Shown here in pieces: positions 48 to 61,714 of a DNA stretch of 64,000 bases. A program made the position numbers and the translations under genes. Below the pieces are notes generated by a model. It did not search any database, was not told the DNA's origin, and worked only from the letters and a program-made list of their open reading frames with translations. The DNA is taken from positions 2,964,001 to 3,028,000 of the forward strand of contig NZ_JAVDWM010000001.1 of assembly GCF_031457495.1 (NCBI RefSeq), written 5' to 3'. The stretch comes from Sphingopyxis sp. BE259. GTDB lineage: Bacteria; Pseudomonadota; Alphaproteobacteria; Sphingomonadales; Sphingomonadaceae. Positions within the stretch are counted from its first letter, which is position 1, and every line of letters starts with the position of its first letter.

Positions 48-854
48 ATGATTGACCTCCCCCTCGTCACCATCCTGCTGCTCACCGGCTTCATCAACCT
101 GATCGGGGCGCTCGCTTATGCCGCACGGATCGCGGGGGTACGCACCCGGCGGATTGCGATGTCGTTCGCGCTGTTCAACATCCTCGTGCTGTTTTCGCGC
201 ACCTCGAACAGCTTCCTCGGCCCGTTCCTGGCCAAACGGATCGAGACGCGGCTGCATGACGGCAGCGGCGCGTCGCTGTTCATCGACATGCAGCTGGTGC
301 TGGCTGCGGCCAGCGTGGCGACCTTGCTCGGTATCCTGCTCGTGCCCACCGGGCAGCGGATGTTTGCCGCCGCGATCGGCTGGTATCAGACCAACCGATC
401 GACGACGAAGCTGGCCGTGAAGGCAATGAGCCCGAGCGGACTGCGCACACTGCGCCGCTCGCTCACGCTTCCCGGCCTCGCGCATCTCAAGAGCTGGAAG
501 ATGCCCAAGGGGATCAGCTGGGGCGTCCTGATCGCCAATTGCCTCGCGCAATCCTTGCTCGCCGTCGGCGTCGTCGCGTCGCTTTACGCCGGTTATCTCG
601 CGCCTGAGTTTCGCGTCACCGCGTCACAACTGTCGGCGCTGATCAACGGTTTTGCGACGATCCTGCTGTTTGCCTTCATCGACCCGCAATTGTCGGTGAT
701 GACCGACGATGCAGTCGAGGGCAAAGTCGAAGAGGCGGAGTTCCGCCGCGCGATCACGCTGATTTCGCTCAGCCGGCTGGCGGGCACAGTGCTGGCGCAG
801 GCCTTGCTGCTGCCCGCCGCAACGCTGATCGCGTGGGTCGCCGTCTATGTCTGA
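48..854 (+). CDS. amj: Lipid II flippase, Amj (DUF2837) family
   Basis: This 268-residue polytopic membrane protein matches the Amj family, which can replace MurJ in flipping the peptidoglycan precursor lipid II across the inner membrane. The first hydrophobic segment covers about residues 4-27. The stretch SRTSNSFLGPFLAKRIE at about residues 50-66 is the family-like motif after the second segment. Further hydrophobic segments lie near residues 82-100, 158-185, 195-215 and 245-265. The length is normal for the family. The stop overlaps the start of the DUF817 gene by 8 bases, so the two are probably cotranscribed. The family call comes from sequence resemblance; flippase activity is known for the family and not shown here. 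Confidence 0.8.
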   Translation: MIDLPLVTILLLTGFINLIGALAYAARIAGVRTRRIAMSFALFNILVLFSRTSNSFLGPFLAKRIETRLHDGSGASLFIDMQLVLAAASVATLLGILLVPTGQRMFAAAIGWYQTNRSTTKLAVKAMSPSGLRTLRRSLTLPGLAHLKSWKMPKGISWGVLIANCLAQSLLAVGVVASLYAGYLAPEFRVTASQLSALINGFATILLFAFIDPQLSVMTDDAVEGKVEEAEFRRAITLISLSRLAGTVLAQALLLPAATLIAWVAVYV

Positions 855-1704: not shown

Positions 1705-1705
1705 C

Positions 1706-1733
1706 CGTCGCCCCCGCAAAGGCGGGGGCGACG
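1706..1733. terminator. Perfect 12-bp hairpin between convergent genes
   Basis: The arms CGTCGCCCCCGC and GCGGGGGCGACG pair perfectly around the loop AAAG. The hairpin starts 2 bases after the DUF817 stop codon and ends 2 bases before the stop of the convergent M24 peptidase gene. There is no clear U-tract on either side. It may be a bidirectional terminator, or a member of a dispersed GC-rich palindrome family. Confidence 0.6.
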
Positions 1734-1735
1734 TT

Positions 1736-47265: not shown

Positions 47266-47895
47266 TTAGACTTCGATCCCTTCCGCCAACGTCAGGGCAT
47301 CTTCCACATCAACGCCGAGGTATCGCACCGTGTTTTCGATTTTGGTGTGGCCCAGAAGAATTTGTACGGCGCGCAAATTCCCAGTCGCCTTGTAGATAAT
47401 CGACGCCTTCGTTCTCCGGAGCGAATGTGTTCCATAGTCCTCGCTTCGTAGGCCGACCGCGGTAACCCAATCATCAACAAGCCGCGCATATTGCCGCGTG
47501 CTCATATGGGCAGAGTGGTCGATACGGCTGAGGAACGCATAGTCCTCGATCGCTCCGCCACGCCGCTCGAGCCATGCCAAGAGGCTTCCGCGCGCGTCCG
47601 ACATTATTTCGAATTGAACTGGTCGGCCCGTCTTCTGCTGAACTACGATTGCCCGCGTTCGCAACTCTCCACCTGTCACCAGATCGCCGATCTTGATCTT
47701 CACCAGATCACAGCCCCGCAGTTTGCTGTCGATCGCAAGATCGAACAGCGCCCGGTCTCGAAGTCGGTGCTCGCGATCAAGATGAAAGCGAGTGGCCCAA
47801 ATCTGACGTGGTTTCAGTGGGCGCTTTGTTCCAACCTTCCTGCCGGCATTCCACGCCGGACGTGGTATCGAATAGTCAAATTCAGACCTTCCCAT
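47266..47895 (-). CDS. Small tyrosine recombinase/integrase
   Basis: The 209-residue protein is little more than a catalytic tyrosine recombinase domain. Visible catalytic elements are Arg in IDSKLRGCDL, Lys in QQKTGRPV, HxxR in THSLRRTK, His in LLGHTKIENT and the nucleophile Tyr in TVRYLGVD. The usual N-terminal core-binding domain is missing or very short. The ATG at 47895 has AGGAGA upstream. No integrase-linked genes accompany it, so it may be a stand-alone integrase or the last trace of an element inserted at the end of the nitrate operon. Confidence 0.88.
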   Translation of the reverse strand: MGRSEFDYSIPRPAWNAGRKVGTKRPLKPRQIWATRFHLDREHRLRDRALFDLAIDSKLRGCDLVKIKIGDLVTGGELRTRAIVVQQKTGRPVQFEIMSDARGSLLAWLERRGGAIEDYAFLSRIDHSAHMSTRQYARLVDDWVTAVGLRSEDYGTHSLRRTKASIIYKATGNLRAVQILLGHTKIENTVRYLGVDVEDALTLAEGIEV

Positions 47896-47913
47896 GATCG
47901 TTCTCCTGTGGCC

Positions 47914-47981
47914 ATGATGGCCTTCCAAGGAACGCTCGAGTGCGCGGGTGGGCGGTCGTCGCCGGACCGAATGGCCATCAT
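47914..47981. repeat. 9-bp inverted repeat upstream of the recombinase gene
   Basis: ATGATGGCC (47914-47922) and GGCCATCAT (47973-47981) are perfect inverted copies, 50 bases apart, directly upstream of the recombinase gene. They could be arm-type recombinase sites or a regulatory site; there is no further support. Confidence 0.35.
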
Positions 47982-48034: not shown

Positions 48035-49237
48035 TCAATGATTCGAACTGAGGTCGGCGAAAATGCGCGCTGACGGCTTGATCCGCCGCTTCTTTCCCAA
48101 ACCCTCGACGGCGACCAGACCGAAGCGCTGACCGTAGCCGAGCATCCATTCGAAATTGTCGAGCAGCGACCAGTAGAAATAGCCGCGCACGTCAGCGCCG
48201 ACGTCGATGGCTCGGCGGACGCCGGCAAGCGCGCTCGCAATGAAAGCCGCGCGGCGCTCGTCATCTTCGCCGACATAGCCATTTTCCGTGACGACCATCG
48301 GCACCGCCCAACGGCTCGCCACCCATTCGCACACCGCTCCGATCGCCTCGGGCCGGTCCTCCCAGCCCATGGTGGTGGCGATCCCGCCCTGGGCCACCCC
48401 CACACTGCCATCGGCGCGGCTGGTCACGCGCGAATAGGTCTGGACGCCAACGAAATCATCTTCCTCGGCAGCGTCGAGAAACGGCGCATAATAGGTTTCG
48501 CGCCGCGCATCGCGATAGGCTTCGCCGCCGGGCTCGGCATCTTCTTCGGATAAGGCCAGCGTCATCCCAACCGCGAGGCCGGAACGTTCGGCACGGATCG
48601 CCGCCCGCGCGGCGCGATGCGCGGCCAGACCGTTGCCGAAGATCGCGTCTTCGGGACTGTGCAGGAAGAAGGCGTCGAGAGGTGCGCCGAGCGCGCGTTC
48701 GGCGGCGGCGCGTTGCTCCGCGCTGGCGCGGGCGCGGAAATAGGGTGCGGCGATCGCAGGCAGATTGAGTTCGTTGATCGTGCAGACGAGCGCGAGGCCG
48801 TCGAGCGCTCGGACCGTTCGCGCCGCCTGTTCGGCAAAGCGCTCGGGAAATTCGCTCGATGTCAGTCCGCCGCGCGCCGCCATCCAGCGCGGCTGGGTGA
48901 AATGATGCAGCGTTACCGCCGGCGCGATCCCGCGTGCTAGGCAGCTATCCGCGACCCGCCGGTAATGATCGAGCGCGGCCTGCGACACGAACCCCGGTTC
49001 GGGCTCGACCCGTGCCCACTCGACCGAAAAGCGATACGCGTTGAAGCCAAGGTCGGCGGCAATGCCGATATCCTCGGCGTAGCGGTGATAATGGTCGGCG
49101 GCGTCGCCAGAGGGTTCGAGAAACAGCGATGGCTTGGCATGTTCGAGCGCCCAGCAATCCGAATGGACGTTGCTGCCCTCGACTTGGTGCGCCGCGGTCG
49201 CGGCGCCCCACAGAAATTGCGACGGGAGGCGGCTCAT
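48035..49237 (-). CDS. GH1 family beta-glucosidase
   Basis: This 400-residue retaining glycosidase of family GH1 shows LWGAATAAHQVEG at the N-terminus, LHHFTQPRWMAARGG (residues 110-124), the acid/base Glu156 in TINELN, the nucleophile Glu318 in VVTENGY, and the substrate-binding YWSLLDNFEWMLGYGQRFG near the end. Leu replaces the usual Pro after the acid/base Glu. No signal peptide is visible, so it should hydrolyse imported beta-glycosides in the cytoplasm. It is the second gene of a minus-strand pair, overlapping the dioxygenase gene by 4 bases. Confidence 0.93.
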   Translation of the reverse strand: MSRLPSQFLWGAATAAHQVEGSNVHSDCWALEHAKPSLFLEPSGDAADHYHRYAEDIGIAADLGFNAYRFSVEWARVEPEPGFVSQAALDHYRRVADSCLARGIAPAVTLHHFTQPRWMAARGGLTSSEFPERFAEQAARTVRALDGLALVCTINELNLPAIAAPYFRARASAEQRAAAERALGAPLDAFFLHSPEDAIFGNGLAAHRAARAAIRAERSGLAVGMTLALSEEDAEPGGEAYRDARRETYYAPFLDAAEEDDFVGVQTYSRVTSRADGSVGVAQGGIATTMGWEDRPEAIGAVCEWVASRWAVPMVVTENGYVGEDDERRAAFIASALAGVRRAIDVGADVRGYFYWSLLDNFEWMLGYGQRFGLVAVEGLGKKRRIKPSARIFADLSSNH

Positions 49238-49944
49238 GCGCCGACGTCGCGGCTGGAGAAATTAAAGATATAGGCGCGGCGCGGCCGATCCGTCGTCCGG
49301 TTGCCCGAGGTGAAATGCGGCGTGCCATAATTATGGACTGTCGCTCCGCCCGCCTTGAGCGGGCATGCGACAATCTTATCAAAATCCAGCCGTGTTTCGG
49401 GATCGCGGATCGCAAGCAGCCGCTGGCTGTAATCGGCGTCGCCACCCGCGATATAATGATCGAGCAGCGGCGCGTTATGGACACCGGGGATGAAATGCAT
49501 GCAGCCATTCTCTTCGTCGACATCGTCGAGCGCGACCCAGAATTGCACATATTCGTCCGACGGAACGGGCGTTCCCGCGGGGGTTAACGGCATCTGTGCA
49601 TAGCTGTAATCCTGGTGCCAGGGCGTCGTCGCGAGCTGGCCGGGCTCCTTGTAGATCAACATGTCGAACACCGGCTTGGGATCGGTGACGCCAAGAAGTT
49701 CGCGCGCCATGTCGCGCGCCGCGTCGAGCGCCGGATTGGCGCGAAAGATGGGATGATAGGCCGAGGGAATCATGATCTGCCGTGTCGTCATGCCCAGCGG
49801 ATTGTCGGTCGCGCTACAGTCGATCTCGCCGCGCAGCATCGCATCATAGACGCCCGCCAACGCCGCGACCGTTTCAGCGCCGACAAGCTGCGGAATGACC
49901 AGAAACCCATCGCGCCGGAAGCGCTCGACGTCGATCCGCTGCAT
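49234..49944 (-). CDS. PhyH family Fe(II)/2-oxoglutarate dioxygenase 1
   Basis: The 236-residue protein belongs to the phytanoyl-CoA dioxygenase (PhyH) family of non-haem iron oxygenases. The iron-binding facial triad is His110-x-Asp112 (PWHQD) and His210 (TPHFTSGN). The 2-oxoglutarate-binding Arg is probably in RPRRAYIF. ENGCMHFIPGVHN is a family-typical turn. The ATG at 49944 is preceded by GAGGAAA. It is transcribed with the GH1 gene and divergently from the TonB receptor gene. Substrate unknown; see the three homologues downstream. Confidence 0.9.
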   Translation of the reverse strand: MQRIDVERFRRDGFLVIPQLVGAETVAALAGVYDAMLRGEIDCSATDNPLGMTTRQIMIPSAYHPIFRANPALDAARDMARELLGVTDPKPVFDMLIYKEPGQLATTPWHQDYSYAQMPLTPAGTPVPSDEYVQFWVALDDVDEENGCMHFIPGVHNAPLLDHYIAGGDADYSQRLLAIRDPETRLDFDKIVACPLKAGGATVHNYGTPHFTSGNRTTDRPRRAYIFNFSSRDVGA

Positions 49945-50025
49945 CTTTTTCCTCGATCCCGATGCCGCGGCGCAATGCCAAGGCTCGCGAGTCAGAATAA
50001 ATTGAACCATTGACAAAATGCAAGA

Positions 50026-50038
50026 TTAGATCGAATTT
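50026..50038. promoter_or_regulatory. Candidate operator in the divergent dioxygenase/TonB-receptor control region
   Basis: TTAGATCGAATTT lies in an AT-rich stretch 44 bases before the TonB receptor start. It matches the complement of the left arm of the inverted repeat at 56377 (TTAGATCTATTTT) at 11 of 13 positions. A shared regulator of both sugar-island promoters is possible. Confidence 0.4.
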
Positions 50039-50081
50039 GAACTCAATTAAAAAATATCGATAAATTGGTGGGAGAGCGATT

Positions 50082-52550
50082 ATGCGGAAGGTGCGGAGAA
50101 ATCTCGCGTGTACGGTGGCGATGCCGTTCGGGCTGCTCGCGCTGGCGCCGGTTTCCGTCGCAGCGCGGGGCCCAGCCGAAGTCAGCGAGAACGACAACGA
50201 CAGGGCGGTCATCATCGTGACCGCGCAAAGGCGCGCCGAGGACGTGCAGGATGTGCCGATCACCGTGTCGGTGGCCACGCAAGACCAGCTGGACATCCAG
50301 AATATCACCACCACCACCGATCTTGTCCGCGCGGTACCGGCGCTGACCGCGACCGATCAGGGGGTTTTCCAGGTACGCGGGATCGGAACGCGCGGTTTCG
50401 GACGGTCCGCCGAGCAATCGGTCTCGGTGGTGATGGATGGTGTTGTCCTTGGCCGCGGGCTGACCAACGCGCTGTACGATGTCGAAACCGTCGAAGTCCT
50501 GTCGGGACCGCAGGGCACGCTGTTCGGCAAGAACTCCAACGCGGGGCTTATCAACGTCACGACCAAGGCGCCTAAGCTGGGCCAAACCGAGTTCATTGGC
50601 CACCTTAATATCGGCAATCGCGATTACATCCACGGCTATGCAATCGCGAACCTGCCGCTTGGCGACACGGCGGCGCTGCGCATCAGCTATCGGCACACCC
50701 GCACCGGGAAGGTCGTTTACAACGAGTTTTACGACGAATGGGACCGCAACACCGACGACGGCGTGCGCGCCCGGTTCCGGTGGCAACCGAGCGACCGGCT
50801 CACCATCGACCTATCCGCCGATTATCAGCGTCTGGCGAGCAACGGCGTCAACGGATCGGCCGATTTCGCTGGCGTCGGTGTTCAGGTCGAAGCGCCACGC
50901 GGATCTGCGCTCGAAGCCACGCTGGCCGCGTGCGGCATCGTCGCCAGCCCGAAAAACAACAAGACGTGTGGCGACAGCCTGCGCGTCGCAGGCATCGACG
51001 AGGGTGACACCTATGGCCGCGAAAATTATGGCGGATCGCTCGCGATCGACTGGGAGCTCGCCGAGGGGCTGACACTCACCTCGATCACCGCCCTGCGCAA
51101 GACTCGCAAGGGCGAATTTGGTATCGATGCCGACCTTGCGGGCGATTTCGCCGATACCGTTCCCGCGAACCTGCTCGACCGCAACCTCATCCCCTACACC
51201 TCCAAAACCTGGAGCCAGGAGCTCCGCATTGCCTCATCGACGGACAATCCGGTGAGCTTCGTTGCGGGGGTCTATTATGCGAGAACTGACACGCTGGACG
51301 TGATCGATCAAAGCGGTACGCTCGGTTTCAATCTTGGCGGACTGGAGTTCCGCCGCAATCCCACCTTCATCATCGACCAGCGCGATTATGCCGCTTTTGG
51401 ACAGGTGGATTGGCGCATCACGCCCGCACTCAAACTCTTCATCGGCGGGCGGGTGACGCATAACGACCTGGAAGACTTCAGCTTCAACTCGTTCGATCGT
51501 TCGGTCACCGCCGGCGGTCCCTATATCTACACCGGCGACACCGGGTTCTTCTCGGTGCTTCCGGTCAATAGCTGCACGCTTGCCGGCGGCCTTCCATTCG
51601 CCGAGCTCCCTGCGGCTCAGCAGATTCCGTGTCCGGCTGGCACCAGCCTTACAGAGCCAGCCCGGGTCAAGAAAACCGGCTTTAGCGGAACGGCCGGGGT
51701 CACGTATGAGCTGAGCCCAGATACCATGCTCTTCGCGCGCTACGCCCGCGGCTACAAAGGGCCGTTCCTCAATGAATCGGTAACCTACACACCCACCCTC
51801 GCGCGTCAGCCGCTGAAGGTGAATCCGGAATATGTCGACTCCGTCGACGTCGGCATCAAGACGCGGCTGTTCAATCGCTTCGCTTTCAACCTCAGCGCCT
51901 TTTATAGCAAGTTCGACGGGTATCAGACGACGATCTTTGTGCCGCCGGTGCCGCCGCAGGTGGTCATCAACTTCATTCAGGGCAACGCCGACGGCACCAC
52001 CACCAAGGGGGTCGAGGCTTCGTTCTATGGCGATCTGACGTCGAACCTGACGCTGTCGGGAGGTATCATCTACAATGAAGCAAGCTACGGCAAAGACTTC
52101 CGGGTGCCTTGCACGACCGATCCGAGCGGCGTTTGCGCGCCGCTGAAGCAGCTGCCCTTTGCGCCGCGATGGAAGGCGACATTCGCCGGCGAGTATAAGC
52201 GCGAGATTGCCAGGAACATCGAAGGCTTTGCCCAATTCGACCTCGATTTTTCGGACAAGTATAGTTACGGATCGAGCCCCGGCAACCCGACGTCGCCGTC
52301 GCGATTTCTGATGGGATTGCGCGGCGGATTGCGCTTCAGCGAAGGCCGCTTTGGCCTCGCCGCCTTTTGCCGCAACTGCCTCGACAAACGCTATCCGATC
52401 ACCACGACATTCGACGGGTTCGCGGGCTTCAACGGCGCGTTCACTCCGGCCGTTCCCGGTGGCCCTGCCCCCACCGGCGGCGCGTTCGTCCAGTTCCTCA
52501 CGGCGGATTCGTATCGCGTGTGGGGCGTGACCCTTGATGCCAGTTTTTGA
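50082..52550 (+). CDS. TonB-dependent outer-membrane receptor (glycoside island)
   Basis: The 822-residue protein has a signal peptide (cut near VSVAA), a TonB-box-like stretch VIIVTAQRRAEDVQDVPITV, and a plug domain with FQVRGIGTRGFG and EVLSGPQGTLFGKNSNAG. The barrel ends in GVTLDASF with terminal Phe. It should bring a bulky glycoside across the outer membrane. GGGAGAG precedes the ATG by 7 bases. It leads the operon of the isomerase, esterase and symporter genes, with a 6-base gap to the next gene. Confidence 0.95.
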   Translation: MRKVRRNLACTVAMPFGLLALAPVSVAARGPAEVSENDNDRAVIIVTAQRRAEDVQDVPITVSVATQDQLDIQNITTTTDLVRAVPALTATDQGVFQVRGIGTRGFGRSAEQSVSVVMDGVVLGRGLTNALYDVETVEVLSGPQGTLFGKNSNAGLINVTTKAPKLGQTEFIGHLNIGNRDYIHGYAIANLPLGDTAALRISYRHTRTGKVVYNEFYDEWDRNTDDGVRARFRWQPSDRLTIDLSADYQRLASNGVNGSADFAGVGVQVEAPRGSALEATLAACGIVASPKNNKTCGDSLRVAGIDEGDTYGRENYGGSLAIDWELAEGLTLTSITALRKTRKGEFGIDADLAGDFADTVPANLLDRNLIPYTSKTWSQELRIASSTDNPVSFVAGVYYARTDTLDVIDQSGTLGFNLGGLEFRRNPTFIIDQRDYAAFGQVDWRITPALKLFIGGRVTHNDLEDFSFNSFDRSVTAGGPYIYTGDTGFFSVLPVNSCTLAGGLPFAELPAAQQIPCPAGTSLTEPARVKKTGFSGTAGVTYELSPDTMLFARYARGYKGPFLNESVTYTPTLARQPLKVNPEYVDSVDVGIKTRLFNRFAFNLSAFYSKFDGYQTTIFVPPVPPQVVINFIQGNADGTTTKGVEASFYGDLTSNLTLSGGIIYNEASYGKDFRVPCTTDPSGVCAPLKQLPFAPRWKATFAGEYKREIARNIEGFAQFDLDFSDKYSYGSSPGNPTSPSRFLMGLRGGLRFSEGRFGLAAFCRNCLDKRYPITTTFDGFAGFNGAFTPAVPGGPAPTGGAFVQFLTADSYRVWGVTLDASF

Positions 52551-52556
52551 CCCTCG

Positions 52557-53450
52557 ATGACGTTTTTCAGCCCCGCCAACACCCACGACGGCAGCACGGC
52601 GCCGCCGCGGCTGCTGGCCGGCATCAGTTTCCTGACGCCGGCCGAATTGCCCGACTGGTCCGCAGGTCCGCGGGGTGATCGCGCCGCCATCTATGCGGCG
52701 GTCAAGGCGGCGGGTTATGAGGCGATCCAGACGCTCGAACCGCAAGCCGCGATCGACGCGGGGCTGATTCCGACCGGGCTGATGCGCATCTTCGACGATG
52801 TCGAGCAGATGGCCGAGGCGGCAATGAAATGGTCCGACGCCGGCTGCGACTGCTCGACGGTTCAACTCGGCACGGGGCTGGAGAGCGATGCCGAGATGCG
52901 GCGCCTTACCGAGGCGATGCTCAATATTTCATCGCAGCTGGCTCACCCTATTTATCTTGAAACCCACCGCGCCACGATGACGCAGGATATCCGCCGCACG
53001 CTCGACCTGATCGACGACTTCCCCGAATTGCGCTTCAACGGCGATTTCGGCCATTGGTATATTGGCCACGAGCTGACCTATGGCGATATGGATATGAAGT
53101 TCGAGGCGATGCGCCCGGTGTTCGAACGCACGCGCTTTATGCACCTTCGCTTGTCGTCAAACGCCTTTGGCCAGCTCACCGCGAGCGACCCGGCCGAGGT
53201 GCGGCACCTCGATTATTACCGCCGCATTTGGACCGCGAGTTTCGAGGGCTTCCTGCGCGACGCGAAGCCCGGCGACTATTTCGCAGTGCATCCCGAACTG
53301 TTGCCCGCGCGCGCCTTCTATCCGAAGATGGTGCGGGGACCCGATGGCGAATGGCGCGAGGAGAGCGACCGCTGGACCGAATCCGCCTTTCTGATCGACG
53401 TCGCGCGGCAATGTTTCGCCGAGGCCGACGCTGCACTTTGCGCCGCATGA
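52557..53450 (+). CDS. Sugar phosphate isomerase/epimerase-like TIM-barrel protein
   Basis: The 297-residue protein resembles the xylose-isomerase-like TIM-barrel (AP endonuclease 2) family, in which metal-bound members isomerise or epimerise sugars. Possible metal ligands are Glu in YLETHRATMTQD, Asp in FNGDFGHWYIG, and His residues in FMHLRLSSN and VHPELLPA. The reaction cannot be assigned. The gene follows the TonB receptor gene by 6 bases and overlaps the esterase gene by 4, so it belongs to the glycoside operon and could process the released sugar. Confidence 0.8.
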   Translation: MTFFSPANTHDGSTAPPRLLAGISFLTPAELPDWSAGPRGDRAAIYAAVKAAGYEAIQTLEPQAAIDAGLIPTGLMRIFDDVEQMAEAAMKWSDAGCDCSTVQLGTGLESDAEMRRLTEAMLNISSQLAHPIYLETHRATMTQDIRRTLDLIDDFPELRFNGDFGHWYIGHELTYGDMDMKFEAMRPVFERTRFMHLRLSSNAFGQLTASDPAEVRHLDYYRRIWTASFEGFLRDAKPGDYFAVHPELLPARAFYPKMVRGPDGEWREESDRWTESAFLIDVARQCFAEADAALCAA

Positions 53451-54994
53451 TGCGGGCGGCATTGGCGCTGATGTTGACCGCTCTCACAACGCAGCCTCTG
53501 CTCGCACGATCGCTCGCCGGCGAGCCTGTAGTCGTCGAAGCGCCCGCCGGGACGCTGGAAGGCCGCGCGAAGGACGGTGTCGAAGGCTTTGCAGGCATAC
53601 CCTATGTCGCCCCGCCGGTCGGCGAACAGCGCTGGCGCCCGCCCGCCCCCGCGCCCGTCTGGTCCGGCGTCCGGCCCGCCGCCGCCTTCGGCGCCGACTG
53701 CCCGCAGGTCCGATTCGACGGCGATGCCACCCCGTCGAACCAGCCGACGAGTGAGGATTGCCTGTTCCTCAACATCTGGCGCCCGGCAAAGGCGCGTAAG
53801 CTGCCGGTGATGGTCTATATCCATGGCGGCGCCTTTGTTGCCGGATCGGCGGCATCGCCGACGGTCGACGGCGCGAACCTCGCGCGCCGCGGCGTGGTGG
53901 TCGTCAATTTCAACTATCGGCTGGGACGGTTCGGATTTTTCGCGCATCCCGCGCTGACCGTCGAAGCGCGCGGAAATCCCGACGCCAATTTCGCCTTCCT
54001 CGACATGATCGCCGCACTCCAATGGGTACAAACCAATGCCGAGGCTTTCGGCGGCGATCCCGGCAATGTCACCATCTTCGGCGAATCCGCGGGCGGCGCG
54101 GCGGTCGATTTCCTGATGTCGTCGCCGCTGGCGCAGGGTCTGTTCCGCAAGGCGATCGTGATGTCGGGCGCCAATCGCGAGCCTTATGCGCGGCGGGCGA
54201 GCGACCGCCCCGCGCGCATATCGGCCGAGAAAGCCGGCCTCGCCTTCGCCGTCAAGGCAGGGCTCGCCGATCCCGATGCGGCGGCGCTGCGCGCTCTGTC
54301 CGCCGACGCGGTGCAGGGCCAGCTTGCCTTCTGGGATCTGCAAGCCGACCGCTTCACCGGCCCGGTGATCGACGGCAAGAGCGTGCTCGCCGACCCGGTC
54401 GAGCGTTTCGCAGCGGGTACGGTGCCGAAAATCCCCTTCCTGATCGGGTCGACGGGTGCCGAACTCAGCGAAGAACCGTTCGCGCCTGTGATGATCGACT
54501 ATCTCAAAAGCCAGAATGATGCCGCGGCCCTCGCCGAACTGACGAAAGCCTATGGCGATCCGCTACCCGCCAAACTGGTCGACCATTATTACTTCACCGA
54601 GGCCGCGCGCGGCTTTGCCAGGATGATGCAGGCGCGGGGCGCCCCTGCCTGGCTCTATGTCTTCGACCATGTCGCCGAATCCGACCACGGCAAGCGCAAG
54701 GGCGCCGCCCACGCCTCCGAACTTGCCTATCTGTTCGGCAATCTGTCCGCGACCGCTGGCGCATCGGACCGCGCGGCATCGAAGTTGATGGGCGATTACT
54801 GGACCAATTTCGCAAAGCACGGCCATCCGAACGGTCGCGACTTGCCCGACTGGCCGCAGCTCGGCCGCTTCGACAATCTGCTGCTGATCCGGGACGGATC
54901 GGCGACGGTCGCGCAGCAACGCGACGCCGACGGCCTTGATGCAATCGAACGCGCCGCGACCATCCGCCGCGCCAGGGAGAAAAGCGCCCCATGA
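53447..54994 (+). CDS. Exported carboxylesterase (type B)
   Basis: This is a 515-residue alpha/beta-hydrolase of the carboxylesterase B family. A signal peptide is present (MMRAALALMLTALTTQPLLA), so it should act in the periplasm. The oxyanion loop is YIHGGAFVAG, the nucleophile is Ser214 in FGESAGGAA, an acidic residue follows in STGAELSEEP, and the catalytic His is in KGAAHASELAYLFG. It probably removes an acyl or other ester group from the imported glycoside. The start at 53447 overlaps the isomerase gene stop (ATGATG), and the stop overlaps the symporter start. Confidence 0.92.
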   Translation: MMRAALALMLTALTTQPLLARSLAGEPVVVEAPAGTLEGRAKDGVEGFAGIPYVAPPVGEQRWRPPAPAPVWSGVRPAAAFGADCPQVRFDGDATPSNQPTSEDCLFLNIWRPAKARKLPVMVYIHGGAFVAGSAASPTVDGANLARRGVVVVNFNYRLGRFGFFAHPALTVEARGNPDANFAFLDMIAALQWVQTNAEAFGGDPGNVTIFGESAGGAAVDFLMSSPLAQGLFRKAIVMSGANREPYARRASDRPARISAEKAGLAFAVKAGLADPDAAALRALSADAVQGQLAFWDLQADRFTGPVIDGKSVLADPVERFAAGTVPKIPFLIGSTGAELSEEPFAPVMIDYLKSQNDAAALAELTKAYGDPLPAKLVDHYYFTEAARGFARMMQARGAPAWLYVFDHVAESDHGKRKGAAHASELAYLFGNLSATAGASDRAASKLMGDYWTNFAKHGHPNGRDLPDWPQLGRFDNLLLIRDGSATVAQQRDADGLDAIERAATIRRAREKSAP

Positions 54995-56367
54995 CCCAGC
55001 ACCGGCTGAGCACCGCCAAGAAGATCGGCTTCACGCTCGGCGACTATGCCAGCAACATCTATTGGCAGAGCGTCTCGATCTTCCTGCTCTTCTTCTACAC
55101 CGACGCGGTCGGCATCCCCGCTGGAACCGCGGGCCTCATCTATATGGTCGCCTCGATCATCGACGCGCTGCAGGATCCGTTCATGGGGTCGATCGCCGAT
55201 CGCACGCGCAGCCGGTGGGGGCGCTATCGGCCTTATATTCTCTTCGGGTGCGTGCCGCTCGGCCTGTCCTTCGTGTTACTCTATTGGCGCCCGCCCTTTT
55301 TCGAGGGGACGGCGCTGGTGCTGTGGATGCTGTTCACCCATGTTGTCTTCCGAACCGCCTATACCGTCGTCACCATCCCCTACACCTCGCTCAACGCGCG
55401 GCTGACCGACAATAGCGACGAACGGTCGACAATCGCCGGCTGGCGGATGATCTTCGGTGTGCTGGCGGCGCTCACCATCATCTATTTCACCTTCCCGCTG
55501 GTCACGCGCTTCGGCGGCAGCAGCGCGACGACCGGCTTTACCTGGGCGGCGGCGGCCTTTGCTGTGATCGCGACGGCGATCTATCCGATCGTCTTTTGCA
55601 TCACCAAGGAACCGCCCGAGACCGACGCGAACGAAACGAAGCTCGACATCCGCGGATACTGGCGCGCGCTCGCGCCCAACACCGCCTTCTGGGCGCTGAT
55701 CGCCGCGACCGTTGCCGCCTTCGTCTGCTCGGTCGCGCTCGGCAAATCGGTGCTCTATTATTTCAAATATGTGCTGGAAGACGAACCCGCGTCGCGTACC
55801 GCGCTGATCGGTATGTCGGCGGCAGGACTGGTGGCAATTCCGATGTGGGTGTGGATCACCAAATATATCGGCAAACGCAACGCCTGGTTCACGGGGACCG
55901 CGATCGGCATGGTGCTGCTGACGATCTTCGCAGTCTTCGATTTCAACACGCCGCTGATGATGACGATCTGGCTGCTCGTCTGGAGCCTCGGCACGCTTGG
56001 CCTTGCGCTCACCTTCTGGTCGATGCTGCCCGACACCGTCGAATATGGCGAATGGAAGACCGGACAGCGCACCGAGAGCTTCATCTTCGGCCTGTTCCAG
56101 TTCTTCCTGAAGGTCGCTCTGGGGGTTGGCGCGGGGGTGTTCGGCTGGCTGCTCGAACGCGCCGGCTATGTTGCCAATGCGCAGCAGACGCCCGAAACAA
56201 TCGCCGGGATCAAGGACATCATGATCTGGCTGCCCGGCCTCGGCTTCGTCCTCGGCGGGATCGCGATGCTCTTCTATCCGATCCGCAAGGGCACCCACGA
56301 AGCGATCGTGGAGGAATTGGCGCACAAACGCGGCGCGGGAAACACCGCGCCCACCGCAGCAGAATGA
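54991..56367 (+). CDS. GPH-family glycoside:cation symporter
   Basis: This 458-residue, 12-segment transporter belongs to the glycoside-pentoside-hexuronide symporter family. Landmarks are KIGFTLGDYASNIYWQ at the start, DALQDPFMGSIADRTRSRWGRYRP (signature loop 2-3), IPYTSLNARLTDNSDERSTI, and WSMLPDTVEYGEWKTGQRTE in the second half. It probably imports the de-esterified glycoside from the periplasm into the cytoplasm. It overlaps the esterase gene by 4 bases and ends the first transcript block; a 79-base AT-rich gap follows. Confidence 0.93.
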   Translation: MTQHRLSTAKKIGFTLGDYASNIYWQSVSIFLLFFYTDAVGIPAGTAGLIYMVASIIDALQDPFMGSIADRTRSRWGRYRPYILFGCVPLGLSFVLLYWRPPFFEGTALVLWMLFTHVVFRTAYTVVTIPYTSLNARLTDNSDERSTIAGWRMIFGVLAALTIIYFTFPLVTRFGGSSATTGFTWAAAAFAVIATAIYPIVFCITKEPPETDANETKLDIRGYWRALAPNTAFWALIAATVAAFVCSVALGKSVLYYFKYVLEDEPASRTALIGMSAAGLVAIPMWVWITKYIGKRNAWFTGTAIGMVLLTIFAVFDFNTPLMMTIWLLVWSLGTLGLALTFWSMLPDTVEYGEWKTGQRTESFIFGLFQFFLKVALGVGAGVFGWLLERAGYVANAQQTPETIAGIKDIMIWLPGLGFVLGGIAMLFYPIRKGTHEAIVEELAHKRGAGNTAPTAAE

Positions 56368-56376
56368 GATCGTCCC

Positions 56377-56422
56377 TAAAATAGATCTAAAAATGACTTT
56401 ATTGGCATAATTAGATATTTTA
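56377..56422. promoter_or_regulatory. Inverted repeat and promoter region before the dioxygenase operon
   Basis: TAAAATAGATCTAA (56377-56390) and TTAGATATTTTA (56411-56422) are imperfect inverted copies 20 bases apart, in the 79-base gap between the symporter and dioxygenase genes. The region is strongly AT-rich against its GC-rich surroundings. A similar motif lies at 50026. It is a candidate operator, possibly for the GntR/FCD protein encoded at 60887. Confidence 0.45.
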
Positions 56423-56446
56423 TAGCGACTCCCAGAGGAGAGCGTC

Positions 56447-57250
56447 ATGGATGCCGAAACGCGGCTGAAAGCCTGGAACGAGCAGGGATTTTTCGTGATG
56501 CGCGGTCTCATCGACCCGGCGCAGGCGAAGGCGGTCGAGGACGAGGTCATCGCTCGCATCCGCGCCTATCCACCCGAGCAACATCCGGGCGAGGCGATCT
56601 ATCAGGCGGGTCCCGACTATGCGATTTTTCCCGAGAAGGAGCCGAGCCCCACTGCGGCGAACCCCGAGGACCGCATCGCCAAGGTCTTCAACTGCCACAC
56701 CGAGGGCATGACGCGACATATCGCCGAGAGCGATGCGGTGGCCAACATCGTCGAAGGCCTTCTCGGACCCGATATCGACTGTTTCCAAAGCCAGTTCATC
56801 TTCAAGAACCCTGGCGTCATCGGCCAGCCTTGGCATCAGGACAGCTATTATTTCCGCTTCGACCGCCAACCGCAGGTCGGCGTGTGGCTCGCGCTCAGCC
56901 GCGCGACACGCGAAAACGGCTGCCTGTGGGTGCTGCCGGGATCGCACAGGGGGCCGATCCACGACCATGTTCCCGACCGCCGCCCCGCCGCGAACCGCGC
57001 CTATACCGAGATCGTCAGCGAAGACGACAGCGCGCGCGAGCCTGCACTGATGGAACCCGGTGACATGCTCTTCTTCCACAGCTTTTTGATGCACATGTCG
57101 ACCGACAATGTCGCCAACGAGCGCCGCGCCGCGATGGTTTATCATTATGGCCGCACCGGCACTCTGCCGATCAACGACGAGGCCGCCGCCTCGCTCGCTC
57201 CCGTCAACCGCTGGATCCCGATCCGCCGCAAGAAGGTCGAGGCTGCATGA
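56447..57250 (+). CDS. PhyH family Fe(II)/2-oxoglutarate dioxygenase 2
   Basis: This 267-residue PhyH-family protein has the complete iron triad: His130-x-Asp132 (PWHQD) and His216 (FLMHMSTDN). The probable 2-oxoglutarate Arg is in ERRAAMVYHY. ENGCLWVLPGSHRGPIHDH is the typical turn of the family. A strong ribosome-binding site (GAGGAG) precedes it. It starts the block of three dioxygenases and a GH5 enzyme, each overlapping the next by 4 bases. The three sequences are clearly different from each other and are not recent duplicates. Confidence 0.92.
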   Translation: MDAETRLKAWNEQGFFVMRGLIDPAQAKAVEDEVIARIRAYPPEQHPGEAIYQAGPDYAIFPEKEPSPTAANPEDRIAKVFNCHTEGMTRHIAESDAVANIVEGLLGPDIDCFQSQFIFKNPGVIGQPWHQDSYYFRFDRQPQVGVWLALSRATRENGCLWVLPGSHRGPIHDHVPDRRPAANRAYTEIVSEDDSAREPALMEPGDMLFFHSFLMHMSTDNVANERRAAMVYHYGRTGTLPINDEAAASLAPVNRWIPIRRKKVEAA

Positions 57251-58065
57251 ACGCCCCCTATCGCATCCATCCGCAGAACAAGGATTTCACCTGGACCGAC
57301 GCACCCGACACGGGGCTGCGTCGCGTGACTCCAGAGCAGAAGAAGCAGTTCGACGAGCAAGGCTATTTCATCCTGCGCGGCGCCTTCACCGATGCCGAGC
57401 TCGATACCGTCGAGGCCGCGATCGATCCGCTCGAGCACCAGCATGAGCTTGCGATCCGCGCCAAGGAGGAAGGGCGCGAGGGTATATCGTCGGCCGATGC
57501 GATCACCTTCACCGGCCATATCGTCAAGAAATCGCCGATCCTGAAATCATTCGCCGCACATGAGGTGATTGCCGAGGTGTGCCACGACCTGATCGGCCCC
57601 GACGTGCGGCTCTATTGGGACCAGTCGGTGTACAAGAAATCGGGAAAGCCGCAGGAATTTCCCTGGCACCAAGACAATGGCTACACCTTCATCGAGCCGC
57701 AGCAATATCTCACCTTCTGGATTCCGCTCGTCGACGTCGATGTCGAGAATGGCTGCCCGTGGATCGCGCCAGGGCTGCACAAGCTCGGCACGCTCGATCA
57801 TTGGGTGACCCCGATCGGCCTCAAATGCCTCAATGAAGCCGAGAATGCGGTGCCCGCACCCGCCAGCCGCGGCGATATCATCATCTTCTCCTCGCTCGCC
57901 CCGCACCGCACCGGCCCCAACCTGAAAGAAGGGACGGTGCGCAAGGCCTATATCCTGCAATATGCCCCCGATGGCGCCGAAGCGTGGACGAAGGAGGGCG
58001 AGCGCGTGCCGCAGACCGACCCCGATCGCCAGTTCCCGATCCTGACCAACGGAAAGCGGCCATGA
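57247..58065 (+). CDS. PhyH family Fe(II)/2-oxoglutarate dioxygenase 3
   Basis: This 272-residue PhyH-family protein has the iron triad His141-x-Asp143 (PWHQDN) and His220 (LAPHRTGPN). ENGCPWIAPGLHKLG is the family turn, and VRKAYILQY holds the probable 2-oxoglutarate Arg. An N-terminal extension of about 25 residues precedes the fold. It overlaps dioxygenase 2 upstream and dioxygenase 4 downstream by 4 bases each, so the enzymes should be made in fixed proportion. Confidence 0.92.
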   Translation: MNAPYRIHPQNKDFTWTDAPDTGLRRVTPEQKKQFDEQGYFILRGAFTDAELDTVEAAIDPLEHQHELAIRAKEEGREGISSADAITFTGHIVKKSPILKSFAAHEVIAEVCHDLIGPDVRLYWDQSVYKKSGKPQEFPWHQDNGYTFIEPQQYLTFWIPLVDVDVENGCPWIAPGLHKLGTLDHWVTPIGLKCLNEAENAVPAPASRGDIIIFSSLAPHRTGPNLKEGTVRKAYILQYAPDGAEAWTKEGERVPQTDPDRQFPILTNGKRP

Positions 58066-58934
58066 CCCCCGATCAGCTCGCGGCCTATGCCGACGCATTT
58101 CGGCGGGATGGCTTCGTCCATGTCCCCGGCGTGATTCCGGCAGACGATCTCGCCGTCTATGCCGCCGCGGTCGACGATGCGGTTGCGACGCGCAAGGCGG
58201 GCGACACGCGGACCTTGGACGAGAAATCGCCCTATGAACAAAGCTTCCTCCAGTGCCAATATATCTGGGAGGATTTTCCGGGCGTCCGCCCCCTCACCTT
58301 CCACCCAGCGGTCGGCGAAGTCACCGCGGCGCTGCTCGGCGCGAAGCGCGTGCGGCTGTGGCACGATCAGGCGCTCTACAAGGAAGCCGGCGGGCGCGAG
58401 ACCGAGGCGCATCAGGACCAGCCCTATTGGCCGATCGTCGAGCGCGATACCGCCACCGCGTGGATCCCGCTGATGAAGGTCGACGCCGCCATGGGCTGCA
58501 TGGGCTATGTCCCCGGCTCGCACCGCGGCGACGCCGAATATGTCGACATCTTCGGGACGCCGGGCGATGGCAAACGGCTGGTCGACAAATATGCGGACAC
58601 GCCGCCGGTATTCGTCGAATGCGAACCCGGCGACGTGATCTTTCACAATGGCTATACGACCCATATGGCGAAGGCGAACCGATCCGATCAGACGCGGCGC
58701 GTCTATACCGCGATCTATTTCGCCGACGGGTCGCATCGCGGTGGGCCGCGTCCCCACCCGTCGGTCGACCGTGATGCGATTGCCGATGGCGCCGTGATCG
58801 ACGGCCGCGCGACACCAATCACCTGGCCGCTGGAGGGGGGCCGTATTCCCGAACCCGAACCGTGGCCCGAAGCGACCGGTCTCGAGTGGCGCGAGCGCGC
58901 CGAGCGGCTCGGCATCATCCCGAAGCGCGCGTGA
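58062..58934 (+). CDS. PhyH family Fe(II)/2-oxoglutarate dioxygenase 4
   Basis: This 290-residue PhyH-family protein has the iron triad His117-x-Asp119 (EAHQDQ) and His201 (YTTHMAKAN). MGYVPGSHRGDAEYVD is the family turn, and TRRVYTAIYF holds the probable 2-oxoglutarate Arg. The longer frame from 57984 overlaps dioxygenase 3 and was rejected; the ATG at 58062 forms an ATGA overlap with its stop. The stop overlaps the GTG start of the GH5 gene. Confidence 0.92.
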   Translation: MTPDQLAAYADAFRRDGFVHVPGVIPADDLAVYAAAVDDAVATRKAGDTRTLDEKSPYEQSFLQCQYIWEDFPGVRPLTFHPAVGEVTAALLGAKRVRLWHDQALYKEAGGRETEAHQDQPYWPIVERDTATAWIPLMKVDAAMGCMGYVPGSHRGDAEYVDIFGTPGDGKRLVDKYADTPPVFVECEPGDVIFHNGYTTHMAKANRSDQTRRVYTAIYFADGSHRGGPRPHPSVDRDAIADGAVIDGRATPITWPLEGGRIPEPEPWPEATGLEWRERAERLGIIPKRA

Positions 58935-60886
58935 CGAAGCTGCCGATCCGCCAGCAAGGCGCGCATTTCGTCGACGCGCATGGCGGGCAGGTGATGCTCC
59001 GCGGGGTCAATCTGGGCGGCGACTGCAAGGTGCCGCCGGGGCAAGGCACCGACGTCTACAGCGACTTCGCCGATCATCGCACGGTCTCCTTCGTCGGCCG
59101 CCCCTTCCCGCTCGCCGAGGCCGACGCTCACCTGGGCCGCATCGCGCATTGGGGTTTCAATACGCTGCGGCTGCTAACGACGTGGGAGGCGGTCGAGCAC
59201 GCCGGACCGGGCCTCTACGACGAGGCTTATCTCGACTATTTCGCCGAAGTCGCGCGCAAGGCGGGCGAGCATGGTCTCAGCCTCTTCGTCGATTTCCACC
59301 AAGACGTGTGGAGCCGCATGTCGGGCGGCGATGGCGCGCCGGGATGGACGTTCGAGGCGGTAGGGCTCGACTTCACCAAATTCAATGCCGCCGGCGCCGC
59401 GCATGTCATGCAGGCGCGCTACGATTATGCCTCGCCCGAAAAGCTGCAGGCCGCCTATCCGCAGATGAGCTGGGGATCGAACTATCGACTGCCGGCGAAC
59501 GGCATCATGTGGACGCTATTTTGGGCCGGTCGGACGGTCACGCCCGACTTCCTGATCGACGGCATCAACGTGCAGGATTATCTGCAGGATCATTATCTGG
59601 GTGCGATGAGCCAGGTCGCACGACGGCTCGCTAACATGCCGCATGTCATCGGCTTCGACACATTGAATGAACCGAGCCTCGGCTGGGTCGGTCAGCCGAT
59701 CGCCTATCGCCATCTCGCGCCGTCGGACGCCAACCCCGAACGGCCGCGCATCGGACCCGCACTCGCGCCGCTCGATGCCATTGCAATGGCGCGCGGATTG
59801 CCTGTCGAGGTCCCTGTTCTAACGCGCGACGTGGCGGGTGCGGCGGTGCCGACGACGACTAAGGTCTTCAACCCAAATGGCGTGTCGATCTGGCGGGAGG
59901 GCGTTCCCTGCCCCTTTGAAACCGCAGGCCGCTACCGAATTGAGGACGGCGTCGCGGTTGCAACAGGGGACGACATCCTCGCCGCGATCGATCCCACCGA
60001 CGACGTCTATCGCCCCTTCTTTCACCAGGTAGCGGAAACCATCCGCGCGCATCAGCCCGGCTGGTCGATCTTTGCCGAAATGGATGTCTTTGCGCATCTG
60101 GCGGGCCGCCGTTTCCCCACCGACCTACCCCACCGCACCGTCAATGCGAGCCATTGGTACGATATGGGAATGCTCTACCTCAAACGCTTCGATCCCACGA
60201 ACCACCGCGACGCGGCGACCGGCCGCGCCGAAACCTCGCTCGACGCCATCAGCGCGCGCTACCAGCGACAACTTGGCGGTTTCGCCTTGGAAAGCACAGC
60301 CTTTCCGGGCGGGGGAGCGCCGACGCTGATCGGCGAATTCGGAATTCCCTATGACCTCGACGATGGCGATGCCTATGACCGCTGGGCCGCGGGCGAACGC
60401 GATGTCTGGGAGCAACATGAGGCCGCTCTAACCTCGATGTACGACGCAATGGACGCGCTCGGCCTCCATTCGACCCAGTGGAATTATACCGCGTCGAACC
60501 GCAACGATCTGCGCATCGGTGACGGCTGGAACCAGGAGGACCTGTCGATCTGGTCCACCGATCAGCGCCTCGGCACCGGCGAGCCCGGCGACGGTGGCCG
60601 CGCCGTTGCGGGCTTCAGCCGCCCCTATGTCCGGCGCGCGCAGGGACGCATCTGCAACGTCGGCTTCAACCGCGTCACACGCCGCTTCGCAGCGGAAATC
60701 GATGTCGACGGCAGCATCGGCGGCGCGACCGAAATCTATGTGCCGCTAGTCCATTATCCGGACGGCTTCGTTCTGCGCTGCGAGGGAATACCGGCCGACA
60801 TCGATCTCGACCAAGCCGGTCAGCGCGCGCGCATCCGCGCGACAGTCGGCGGAGCCATGTCAGTAGAGATTCTTCCCGCGGTGTGA
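58931..60886 (+). CDS. GH5 family glycosidase, endoglycoceramidase-like
   Basis: The 651-residue protein resembles GH5 enzymes of the endoglycosylceramidase/steryl-glucosidase type. It starts with VMLRGVNLGGDCK. The conserved Arg/Asn region is HWGFNTLRLLTTWEAVEHAG. The acid/base Glu247 is in FDTLNEPS and the nucleophile Glu469 in LIGEFGIPYD. From about residue 555 it has the C-terminal beta-sandwich found in that subgroup (FSRPYVRRAQGRI, then ATEIYVPLVHYP). There is no signal peptide, so hydrolysis should be cytoplasmic. The GTG start overlaps the dioxygenase 4 stop. A lipid-like or terpenoid aglycone is inferred from the subgroup only. Confidence 0.88.
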   Translation: MTKLPIRQQGAHFVDAHGGQVMLRGVNLGGDCKVPPGQGTDVYSDFADHRTVSFVGRPFPLAEADAHLGRIAHWGFNTLRLLTTWEAVEHAGPGLYDEAYLDYFAEVARKAGEHGLSLFVDFHQDVWSRMSGGDGAPGWTFEAVGLDFTKFNAAGAAHVMQARYDYASPEKLQAAYPQMSWGSNYRLPANGIMWTLFWAGRTVTPDFLIDGINVQDYLQDHYLGAMSQVARRLANMPHVIGFDTLNEPSLGWVGQPIAYRHLAPSDANPERPRIGPALAPLDAIAMARGLPVEVPVLTRDVAGAAVPTTTKVFNPNGVSIWREGVPCPFETAGRYRIEDGVAVATGDDILAAIDPTDDVYRPFFHQVAETIRAHQPGWSIFAEMDVFAHLAGRRFPTDLPHRTVNASHWYDMGMLYLKRFDPTNHRDAATGRAETSLDAISARYQRQLGGFALESTAFPGGGAPTLIGEFGIPYDLDDGDAYDRWAAGERDVWEQHEAALTSMYDAMDALGLHSTQWNYTASNRNDLRIGDGWNQEDLSIWSTDQRLGTGEPGDGGRAVAGFSRPYVRRAQGRICNVGFNRVTRRFAAEIDVDGSIGGATEIYVPLVHYPDGFVLRCEGIPADIDLDQAGQRARIRATVGGAMSVEILPAV

Positions 60887-61714
60887 TCAATCGGCGTGCT
60901 TGCGCCCGCGCTTCGCGGTCAAACTGCTACGCAGCCGCTCCTTGATGGCATTACGCACCGGCTGACTGGCCGCGAAATAATCGTCGATCACCGCAACCGC
61001 CCTGCCCTTGTCACGCGCAACCAGCGCGTCGACGATCGCGCGATGCATGCCAAGCACCTCGCCGTCGGCGCTACGACGCCCCTCGCTCGGCTCGGCGAAC
61101 AGGTTGACATATCGCTCCAGCCGGAAACCGATGTCGCCGAGAAGCTGCATGAGCAGCGGCGAGCGGCAGCCCGACACGAGCGCGCCGTGAAACTCCCAAT
61201 AAGCTCGCTGCCACTGCTCGCGCGCTTCGGGTTCGCCATCAGGCTCGACGACCTTTGCCTTAGACGCGCGGTGGAGCTGGACGACGACGCGCTCTTCCCA
61301 TTCATCGTCGGCAAGGTCGATCGCCATCTCGATCGCCAGCTTATAGAGTCGCTGATAGACCGCCAGCACATCGTCATAGTCGGCGAGCGAGACCGGTGCG
61401 ACGCGATAGCCCTTCTGATGCTCGTGAACGACGAGGCCGCTTTCGGACATCAGCAGAATAGCTTCGCGGATCGGGCTGTGCCCGACGCCATAGAATTGGA
61501 CGAGATGCTCGACCTTCAACCGTTCATGCGGTTCAAAAACACCGCGCACGATATCACGCCGCAACCAGAATGCCGCTGCCTTCGAAGGATTCTGCACCGG
61601 ATCAAATGGACCCGATACATCTTTATCCGAAAAGGTAGAAATCGATGGAATATTGGTCGTCACGACAACATTCCATAAGCGCAATCCAATCGATGTCCAG
61701 CGCCGCAAGGCCAT
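60887..61714 (-). CDS. GntR family (FCD) transcriptional regulator
   Basis: The protein has a winged helix-turn-helix domain (FEPHERLKVEHLVQFYG, then GHSPIREAILLMSESGLV near residues 60-95). A C-terminal FCD effector domain follows (LAVYQRLYKLAIEMAI, then EFHGALVSGCRSPLL and LGMHRAIVDALVARD with metal-binding His residues). It is convergent with the GH5 gene and probably controls the glycoside island in response to a sugar acid or pathway product; that is inference. The longest frame starts at ATG 61714 without a clear ribosome-binding site; GTG 61663 is an alternative. A perfect palindrome at 61735 lies just upstream. Confidence 0.9.
   Translation of the reverse strand: MALRRWTSIGLRLWNVVVTTNIPSISTFSDKDVSGPFDPVQNPSKAAAFWLRRDIVRGVFEPHERLKVEHLVQFYGVGHSPIREAILLMSESGLVVHEHQKGYRVAPVSLADYDDVLAVYQRLYKLAIEMAIDLADDEWEERVVVQLHRASKAKVVEPDGEPEAREQWQRAYWEFHGALVSGCRSPLLMQLLGDIGFRLERYVNLFAEPSEGRRSADGEVLGMHRAIVDALVARDKGRAVAVIDDYFAASQPVRNAIKERLRSSLTAKRGRKHAD

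Follow-up and report, generated by a model that had tools for sequence, protein, structure and literature searches.

The region described here lies in a 64,000-nucleotide stretch of the genome of Sphingopyxis sp. BE259 (hereafter the window; the host genome is a single contig of 3.67 Mb), in which eleven genes at positions 48035 to 61714 form a putative glycoside-utilization island containing four Fe(II)/2-oxoglutarate dioxygenases of the PhyH family (PhyH1 to PhyH4). A first-pass annotation had proposed these genes and their coordinates from the letters of the DNA, and both were confirmed by open reading frame (ORF) coordinates and by Pfam and NCBIfam profile searches. The leftward arm carries the genes for PhyH4 and a GH1 enzyme. 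The rightward arm encodes a TonB-dependent receptor, a TIM-barrel protein, a carboxylesterase, and a GPH-family symporter, followed after 79 bases by PhyH1, PhyH2, PhyH3, and a GH5 enzyme, and a gene for a GntR/FCD regulator faces this arm. Six of the junctions are 4-base overlaps: GH1/PhyH4, TIM barrel/esterase, esterase/symporter, and the uninterrupted chain PhyH1/PhyH2, PhyH2/PhyH3, and PhyH3/GH5, which had likewise been noted in the first pass.

The last gene of the rightward arm (58931 to 60886, forward strand, with a GTG start) encodes a GH5 enzyme of the sterylglucosidase type. In a PDB search, its best solved relatives were the fungal sterylglucosidases 7lpo (E-value 7e-80) and 8exd (8e-71), while endoglycoceramidases were much weaker matches (5e-11 to 7e-9); the NCBIfam endoglycoceramidase model (EndGlycCerase / Endoglycoceramidase I, NF051847) gave 71.9 bits against a cut-off of 700. 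These scores rule out the endoglycoceramidase-like identity first suggested for this gene. The accompanying suggestion of a lipid or terpenoid aglycone is still possible given a GH5 of the sterylglucosidase type, but ceramide is disfavored by the same scores. Ten active-site residues of the sterylglucosidase Sgl1, as named in excerpts of its description, are identical in the island protein in an alignment read by eye (K33, H123, D125, N246, E247, Y410, E469, W517, W533, and E536). Among these, E247 and E469 align with the catalytic pair Glu270 and Glu520, and W533 with the cap residue Trp584 (the PDB chain of Sgl1 is numbered one higher than the paper). Across 70 aligned GH5 rows, from which five short GH5-like ORFs (in L084, L085, L087, and two in L107) were excluded by length, eight of the ten residues are present in all 70, W533 in 69 (one gap), and K33 in 66 (four gaps). 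The residues thus assign the protein to the sterylglucosidase type, and activity on steryl glucosides is predicted. Genes of this type occur in many Alphaproteobacteria, accounting for most of the 69 loci described below, and the nearest named relatives found in a scan of the genome collection belong to Sphingopyxis. Among open-licence PMC papers, the Sgl1 paper was the sole match on bacterial GH5 sterylglucosidases.

Two further observations concern this GH5 type. At G052:C2:269829-271729 (L107), a GH5 homolog is found in pieces, suggesting loss. Parvibaculum and related loci (for example L027, L033, L034, L052, and L053) also carry this GH5 type, in a recurring gene neighborhood with no PhyH or GPH match.

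The four dioxygenases, PhyH4 (49234 to 49944, reverse strand; PF05721), PhyH1 (56447 to 57250; PF05721, E-value 3e-33), PhyH2 (57247 to 58065; PhyH profile, model pLDDT [predicted local distance difference test] 89), and PhyH3 (58062 to 58934; PhyH profile), the last three on the forward strand, scored 100 to 116.5 bits against the PhyH cut-off of 22 (E-values 3e-28 to 3e-33). The complete metal-binding triads attributed to them in the first pass were recovered: the HxD...H motif and a downstream arginine are kept in all 42 of the PhyH rows aligned, at H130, D132, H216, and R227 in PhyH1, H141, D143, H220, and R232 in PhyH2, H117, D119, H201, and R212 in PhyH3, and H110, D112, H210, and R222 in PhyH4. 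The alignment includes the only other PhyH match of the genome. With four of the genome's five matches located within 9.7 kb, the clustering exceeds what chance would give. In a PhyH tree, PhyH1, PhyH3, and PhyH4 each fell into a supported group spanning several genera, on branches of 2.5 to 3.8 changes per column; these lengths rule out a recent tandem duplication and indicate that different enzymes were collected. The order of the deep branches in this tree is unsafe, and it leaves out L029, L102, and L103, whose PhyH2 (L029) or PhyH2-like genes (L102 and L103) were missed by the home-made gene caller.

The solved relatives of these enzymes bear on which part of a glycoside they might act on. 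EvdO2 acts on an oligosaccharide, and the C5'' and C4'' positions of nogalamycin lie in its sugar. PhyH4 is closest to EvdO2 (E-value 4e-28), and PhyH3 to SnoK (1e-26) and SnoN (1.5e-17), which, according to the portions of PMC5321127 consulted, catalyze carbocyclization and epimerization at C5''/C4'' in nogalamycin biosynthesis. The dioxygenases might therefore modify the sugar part, either hydroxylating, epimerizing, or O-demethylating a modified glucose or opening the glycosidic bond oxidatively, and so enable cleavage by GH5 and GH1 and use of the product by the TIM-barrel protein. The overlap of the PhyH4 and GH1 genes is consistent with this, as is a PhyH3-like gene (39% identity) in a locus with an alpha-amylase-family protein in genome G297. 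PhyH1, however, is nearest to human phytanoyl-CoA hydroxylase (PHYH; 1e-18), and the structural relatives of PhyH2 are only 12% to 23% identical, with proline hydroxylase, PHYH, MysH, and SnoK/SnoN tied among them. In genome G447, moreover, genes like those for PhyH1 and PhyH2 adjoin a cytochrome P450 and a flavin monooxygenase. On balance, we regard action on the sugar as possible but rather unlikely. Fold comparison against the PDB was also tried as a means of naming a substrate for PhyH2 or the TIM-barrel protein, and gave ties only.

The association between the GH5 and PhyH genes is conserved beyond the window. A pattern-based scan of a genome contig collection with GH5 returned 69 loci, in which neighbor genes outside the Pfam runs were named by eye or by similarity. 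PhyH2, the dioxygenase that accompanies GH5 most often, was found no more than 10 kb from it in 11 of these (L019 to L026, L028, L029, and L074), and additionally in genomes G400 and G281. PhyH1, PhyH2, and PhyH3 occurred together in eight of the 69 (L019, L020, L021, L022, L024, L025, L026, and L074), and PhyH4 in four (L019, L020, L021, and L026). Matches to the other island genes among the 11 PhyH2 loci numbered nine for the TIM-barrel protein, nine for GntR, eight for the GPH symporter, eight for the receptor, four for the esterase, and two for GH1; GH1 was detected only in L019 and L020 among all 69, and is cut there by the end of the locus. The synteny of PhyH triplets with GH5 and GPH genes, a check proposed in the first-pass annotation, is therefore real, although gene order and strand vary, as in Phenylobacterium (L022), Caulobacter (L024), Sphingomonas mali (L025), Hephaestia (L026), and Sphingomonas colocasiae (L028). 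The smallest unit consists of a GH5 gene facing a single PhyH2 gene (L029 and L098). In a GH5 tree built with a quick method, 11 PhyH-linked rows, including that of the window, formed one group (Shimodaira-Hasegawa-like approximate likelihood ratio test, 98), and GH5-PhyH2 pairs recurred in two further GH5 lineages. In this tree, L029 bears the label of a row without PhyH; its PhyH2 escaped the gene caller and was recovered by tblastn.

At the level of whole genomes, these genes are rare. Within the family, PhyH2 was detected in three of 397 genomes (E-value at most 1e-40), all three of which also carry GH5, and GH5 was matched in nine of the 397, two of these matches being weak and possibly other GH5 enzymes (G372, E-value 2e-7; G075, 6e-4). 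PhyH3 was present in three of 394 family genomes, in one at 38% identity only, and GntR likewise in three of 394. Within the class, PhyH2 was detected in seven of 385 genomes, and only two of these seven, the window genome and G400, also carry GH5.

A predicted operator connects the two arms. Its motif was read from the promoters by eye and tested afterwards; exact gapped palindromes had been considered as the operator as well, and none was widely common to the promoters. The window contains two copies of the core TAGATCKA or its complement, one per regulated promoter of the island. Two octamers in 64 kb are no more than the background of 0.041 per kb predicts, and it is their place that counts rather than their number. 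The first predicted operator (50023 to 50064, without strand) occupies the divergent promoter between PhyH4 and the receptor, its core at 50027 lying at a spacing of 26 from a weaker core at 50053, and the second is a pair upstream of PhyH1 (56378 to 56423, without strand), with cores at 56382 and 56412 (spacing 30).

For wider comparison, a matrix was derived from 12 sites in eight of 11 islands (the window, L019 to L026, L028, and L074, with the first three of these closely related to one another), and no locus was scored with its own sites in the matrix. A pair was defined as one site of at least 15 bits with a partner of at least 9 bits. Site pairs 29 to 30 bp apart were found in all 11 islands, whereas none of 14 control loci contained a site of at least 15 bits; these controls include L029, L098, and L104, which carry PhyH2 only, without the regulator. 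A background set of 59 loci (1.04 Mb), eight of which are also among the controls, contained 22 sites of at least 15 bits but just two pairs, one spaced by 28 bp and one by 36 bp. The strict form of the motif, WWWTMGATCKAWWW, occurred 11 times in five whole genomes. Eight of these copies lie in island promoters, and the other three are unpaired and lie in coding regions (two in the window's own genome and one in Caulobacter); the same pattern read backwards, which served as a control, had a single copy in each of two of these genomes and none in the other three. In L026, L028, and L074, the promoters lack the strict octamer, and their sites are matrix sites only.

The regulator gene (60887 to 61714, reverse strand, with a GTG at 61669 as a possible alternative start) encodes a GntR domain (PF00392, 50.3 bits) and an FCD domain (PF07729, 51.5 bits), both above their cut-offs, and scores below the CsiR equivalog NF008576 (114.2 bits against 218). 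The gene or a homolog is present in ten of the 11 islands with an operator pair; the exception is L074, with none in its 19 kb, and the same species has a GntR gene at L028. This co-occurrence makes the GntR/FCD protein the natural candidate, and probably the reader, of the predicted operator. Coding similarity probably accounts for a further site at 61642, where the GntR coding sequence starts. The conserved operator across both arms is an addition to what had been described for this locus, and the island is apparently self-regulated. Also in L074 (S. colocasiae), an operator-like site was observed at 2169, upstream of an ORF of 682 amino acids (3 to 2048, reverse strand) without a Pfam match, which is possibly a further member of the regulon.

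The arrangement could in principle be a chance neighborhood, in which a sugar locus happens to lie beside unrelated dioxygenases, as the PhyH family is large and the neighbors often differ from locus to locus. Given the synteny in three GH5 lineages and the single operator over both arms, we give this explanation next to no credence. Rather, the conservation supports the dioxygenases as an integral part of the island.

Clues to the substrate come from related loci that lack PhyH genes. Six loci combine a GH5 homolog and a GPH symporter, as the island does (L043, L057, L060, L066, L105, and L106), with receptor and esterase matches in four of the six. They differ from the island in having no PhyH gene, no operator site, and, judged by eye, other regulators, as well as, in some of them, in the presence of rhamnosidases or tannase: Pfam identified a GH78 alpha-L-rhamnosidase and a tannase in Caulobacter L043, and a GH106 rhamnosidase in L105 and L106. 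Proteins clustering with those of L043 were found in L049, L065, L066, and L072 (rhamnosidase) and in L065, L066, and L072 (tannase). Similarly, a relative of the island regulator (51% identity) in genome G155 (L126, C7, 9606 to 19998) has as neighbors a gene that looks receptor-like by eye and genes for a GH78 rhamnosidase, a carboxylesterase (45%), and a tannase; family scans gave no GH5, PhyH2, or PhyH3 match in G155, and the L126 stretch contained no GH5 or PhyH match. Rhamnosidases and tannase beside relatives of both the GH5 and the regulator provide a link to acylated, rhamnose-bearing plant glycosides.

Such enzymes are usual for plant phenolics, and also for saponins. The substrate could accordingly be an acylated phenolic or flavonoid glycoside, such as a rutinoside or acyl-glucoside, rather than a terpenoid one, with the dioxygenases O-demethylating or hydroxylating a phenolic aglycone. 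Besides the GH78 and GH106 rhamnosidases and the tannase or feruloyl esterase of these loci, a ring-hydroxylating Rieske-type subunit encoded 7.6 kb after GH5 in L021 would fit this idea. Against it, the closest solved GH5 enzymes are steryl glucosidases, and no island-linked gene of an aromatic pathway was recognized by eye among the clusters listed (up to 60) as common to at least four of the 69 loci. We therefore consider a phenolic substrate unlikely. Other neighbors in the sister islands include an AMP-binding ligase directly after GH5 (overlapping it by 4 bases in L026 and separated from it by 3 bases in L028), an AMP-binding ligase after GntR in L019, an acyl-CoA (coenzyme A) dehydrogenase, SMP-30 lactonase, and flavin monooxygenase near L022's island genes, and a flavin monooxygenase in L098. 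Neighbors of these kinds, the Rieske subunit included, are common and prove little.

Two side observations concern loci related through single genes. L127 (G297:C3, 9745 to 10557), which holds the PhyH3-like gene and the alpha-amylase-family protein (Pfam) mentioned above, contains by eye more amylase-like genes as well as transporter, LacI-like, and receptor genes, and represents a second kind of PhyH-bearing sugar locus; it has one unpaired operator-like site of 15.2 bits and was not among the controls. L126 has no site of at least 15 bits, and has weak operator-like sites at 10607 and 10667, 60 bp apart.

The remaining island genes encode uptake and processing functions. The TonB-dependent receptor (50082 to 52550, forward strand; PF00593 and PF07715) scored only 42.5 bits with TIGR04056 (cut-off 368.25), the SusC/RagA receptor model that marks a SusC-type polysaccharide utilization locus. 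It is 91% identical to its counterpart in L020 only, and 28% to 30% in seven other sister loci; in L019 and L021, where the other matched genes are 66% to 90% identical, it reaches only 29% to 30%, which indicates that receptors have been exchanged. The TIM-barrel protein (52557 to 53450, forward strand) has no Pfam match, and its confidently predicted structure is a xylose-isomerase-like barrel with residues E135, D163, H196, and E247 invariant in 36 rows. The data speak neither for nor against its placement in the ketose 3-epimerase / 3-keto-glycoside lyase branch of these barrels. It is followed by a type-B carboxylesterase (53447 to 54994, forward strand; PF00135, E-value 2e-107; GESAGG at residue 212) and a GPH-family cation symporter (54991 to 56367, forward strand), which scored 358.1 bits with TIGR00792 (cut-off 231.35). 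The GH1 protein (48035 to 49237, reverse strand; PF00232, E-value 1e-59) is a short beta-glucosidase in which the motifs INELN and TENGY start at residues 154 and 317, respectively. Its best PDB match is 4r27 (2e-104), which we take to be the enzyme of Microbacterium sp. Gsoil 167. Ginsenosides have been docked in the Microbacterium sp. Gsoil 167 enzyme, as cited in part of a review (PMC9858181). As far as can be judged by eye, the N-termini agree with the earlier assignment of signal peptides to the esterase and receptor only: these two look exported, and GH1, GH5, the TIM-barrel protein, and the PhyH proteins do not.

Directly left of the island lies an ORF for a phage-integrase-family protein (tyrosine recombinase) of 220 amino acids (47266 to 47928, reverse strand; Pfam E-value 1.5e-19). 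GH5, PhyH2, PhyH3, and GntR had no match in the 10 same-genus genomes searched, and together with the adjoining integrase ORF this makes a horizontal acquisition of the island possible. Base composition was considered as a sign of transfer and gave no signal, the guanine-cytosine content being 63.3% in the island and 63.7% elsewhere in the window. A transfer RNA gene was likewise not found at 30000 to 64000.

From the gene content, catalytic residues, synteny, and conserved operator, we infer one GntR/FCD-controlled regulon through which a hydrophobic beta-glucoside is taken up and broken down, most likely one of the terpenoid or steroid type that is acylated and of plant (or fungal) origin, an interpretation that we judge to be evenly poised between right and wrong. 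Judging by its family, the TonB-dependent receptor would import the glycoside into the periplasm, where the exported carboxylesterase would strip its acyl groups, and the GPH symporter would carry the de-acylated glycoside to the cytosol. There, GH1 may trim an outer glucose where present, and GH5, with its conserved active-site residues, would cleave the last single glucose. The released aglycone would then be hydroxylated at different positions, first by PhyH2 and then by PhyH1, PhyH3, and PhyH4, before a CoA-dependent degradation of the kind suggested by the ligase gene after GH5 in two sister islands. In the order proposed by the first-pass annotation, hydroxylation or O-dealkylation would instead precede hydrolysis. 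From its fold, the TIM-barrel protein probably isomerizes or epimerizes a sugar product.

Several observations weigh against this scheme. PhyH3 and PhyH4 are nearer to sugar-modifying enzymes than to aglycone hydroxylases, and the island in the window lacks a rhamnosidase. Islands that are otherwise alike do not share the receptor, and the esterase (four of 11), GH1 (two of 11), and directly following ligase (two of 11) are present too seldom for these steps to be core. The tie between PhyH and GH5 is also not strict: five genomes of the class contain PhyH2-like genes (43% to 54% identity) without GH5, and in G447 (L102, C36, 3051 to 12783) a PhyH2-like (49%) and a PhyH1-like (51%) gene lie 1.6 kb apart without GH5, with a P450, a flavin monooxygenase, and a GPH-like gene as neighbors. 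The latter neighborhood suggests that the PhyH1- and PhyH2-like enzymes act on an aglycone rather than a sugar, perhaps in another aglycone pathway. A broader proposal is that the four distinct dioxygenases oxidatively dismantle the glycoside, at its sugar or while intact, with the oxygenase step, and not just hydrolysis, making the glucoside usable and GH5 with PhyH2 as the minimal unit; this we hold to be doubtful.

Under the regulon interpretation, the occurrence of a conserved GH5-PhyH unit under one very specific predicted operator allows the two enzyme types to be tested jointly: inducible expression is expected from the operator and the class of glucoside from the GH5, while the minimal pair of GH5 and PhyH2 singles out the first dioxygenase. 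If this is correct, dioxygenases would join the repertoire of glycoside-utilization loci.

Searches of open-licence PMC papers for homologous loci of known function, whose existence the first-pass annotation had seen as a challenge to its proposal, showed none among the matches listed, and the term "phytanoyl-CoA dioxygenase" was absent from the papers listed for two of these searches. PMC9203511, one of the matches, contains the term "2-oxoglutarate-dependent dioxygenase" a single time. The saponin-degrading loci of Sphingobium RC1 resemble the island in that a sphingomonad breaks down a glycoside and then its aglycone. They use GH3, GH39, GH78, and GH106 enzymes according to the parts of PMC10653915 consulted, in whose main text the words GH5, dioxygenase, TonB, and PhyH are absent. 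Endoglycoceramidases (Rhodococcus EGCase II and EGC I) are GH5 enzymes with a C-terminal beta domain, as is the island enzyme; the similarity to endoglycoceramidases is weak (E-value 5e-11 at best), and the active site of EGCase II is described as open in an excerpt of PMC8497620, whereas the island GH5 has the cap tryptophan. The fungal GH5 enzymes Sgl1 (Cryptococcus) and SglA (8exd) are closer, since the island protein, known here from its sequence, shares the catalytic glutamate pair, sugar-site residues, and cap tryptophan of Sgl1, and it differs from both in being bacterial and in sharing its operon with dioxygenase genes. A sterylglucosidase-like enzyme combined with four different iron enzymes is an unusual mix for a set of sugar-utilization genes.

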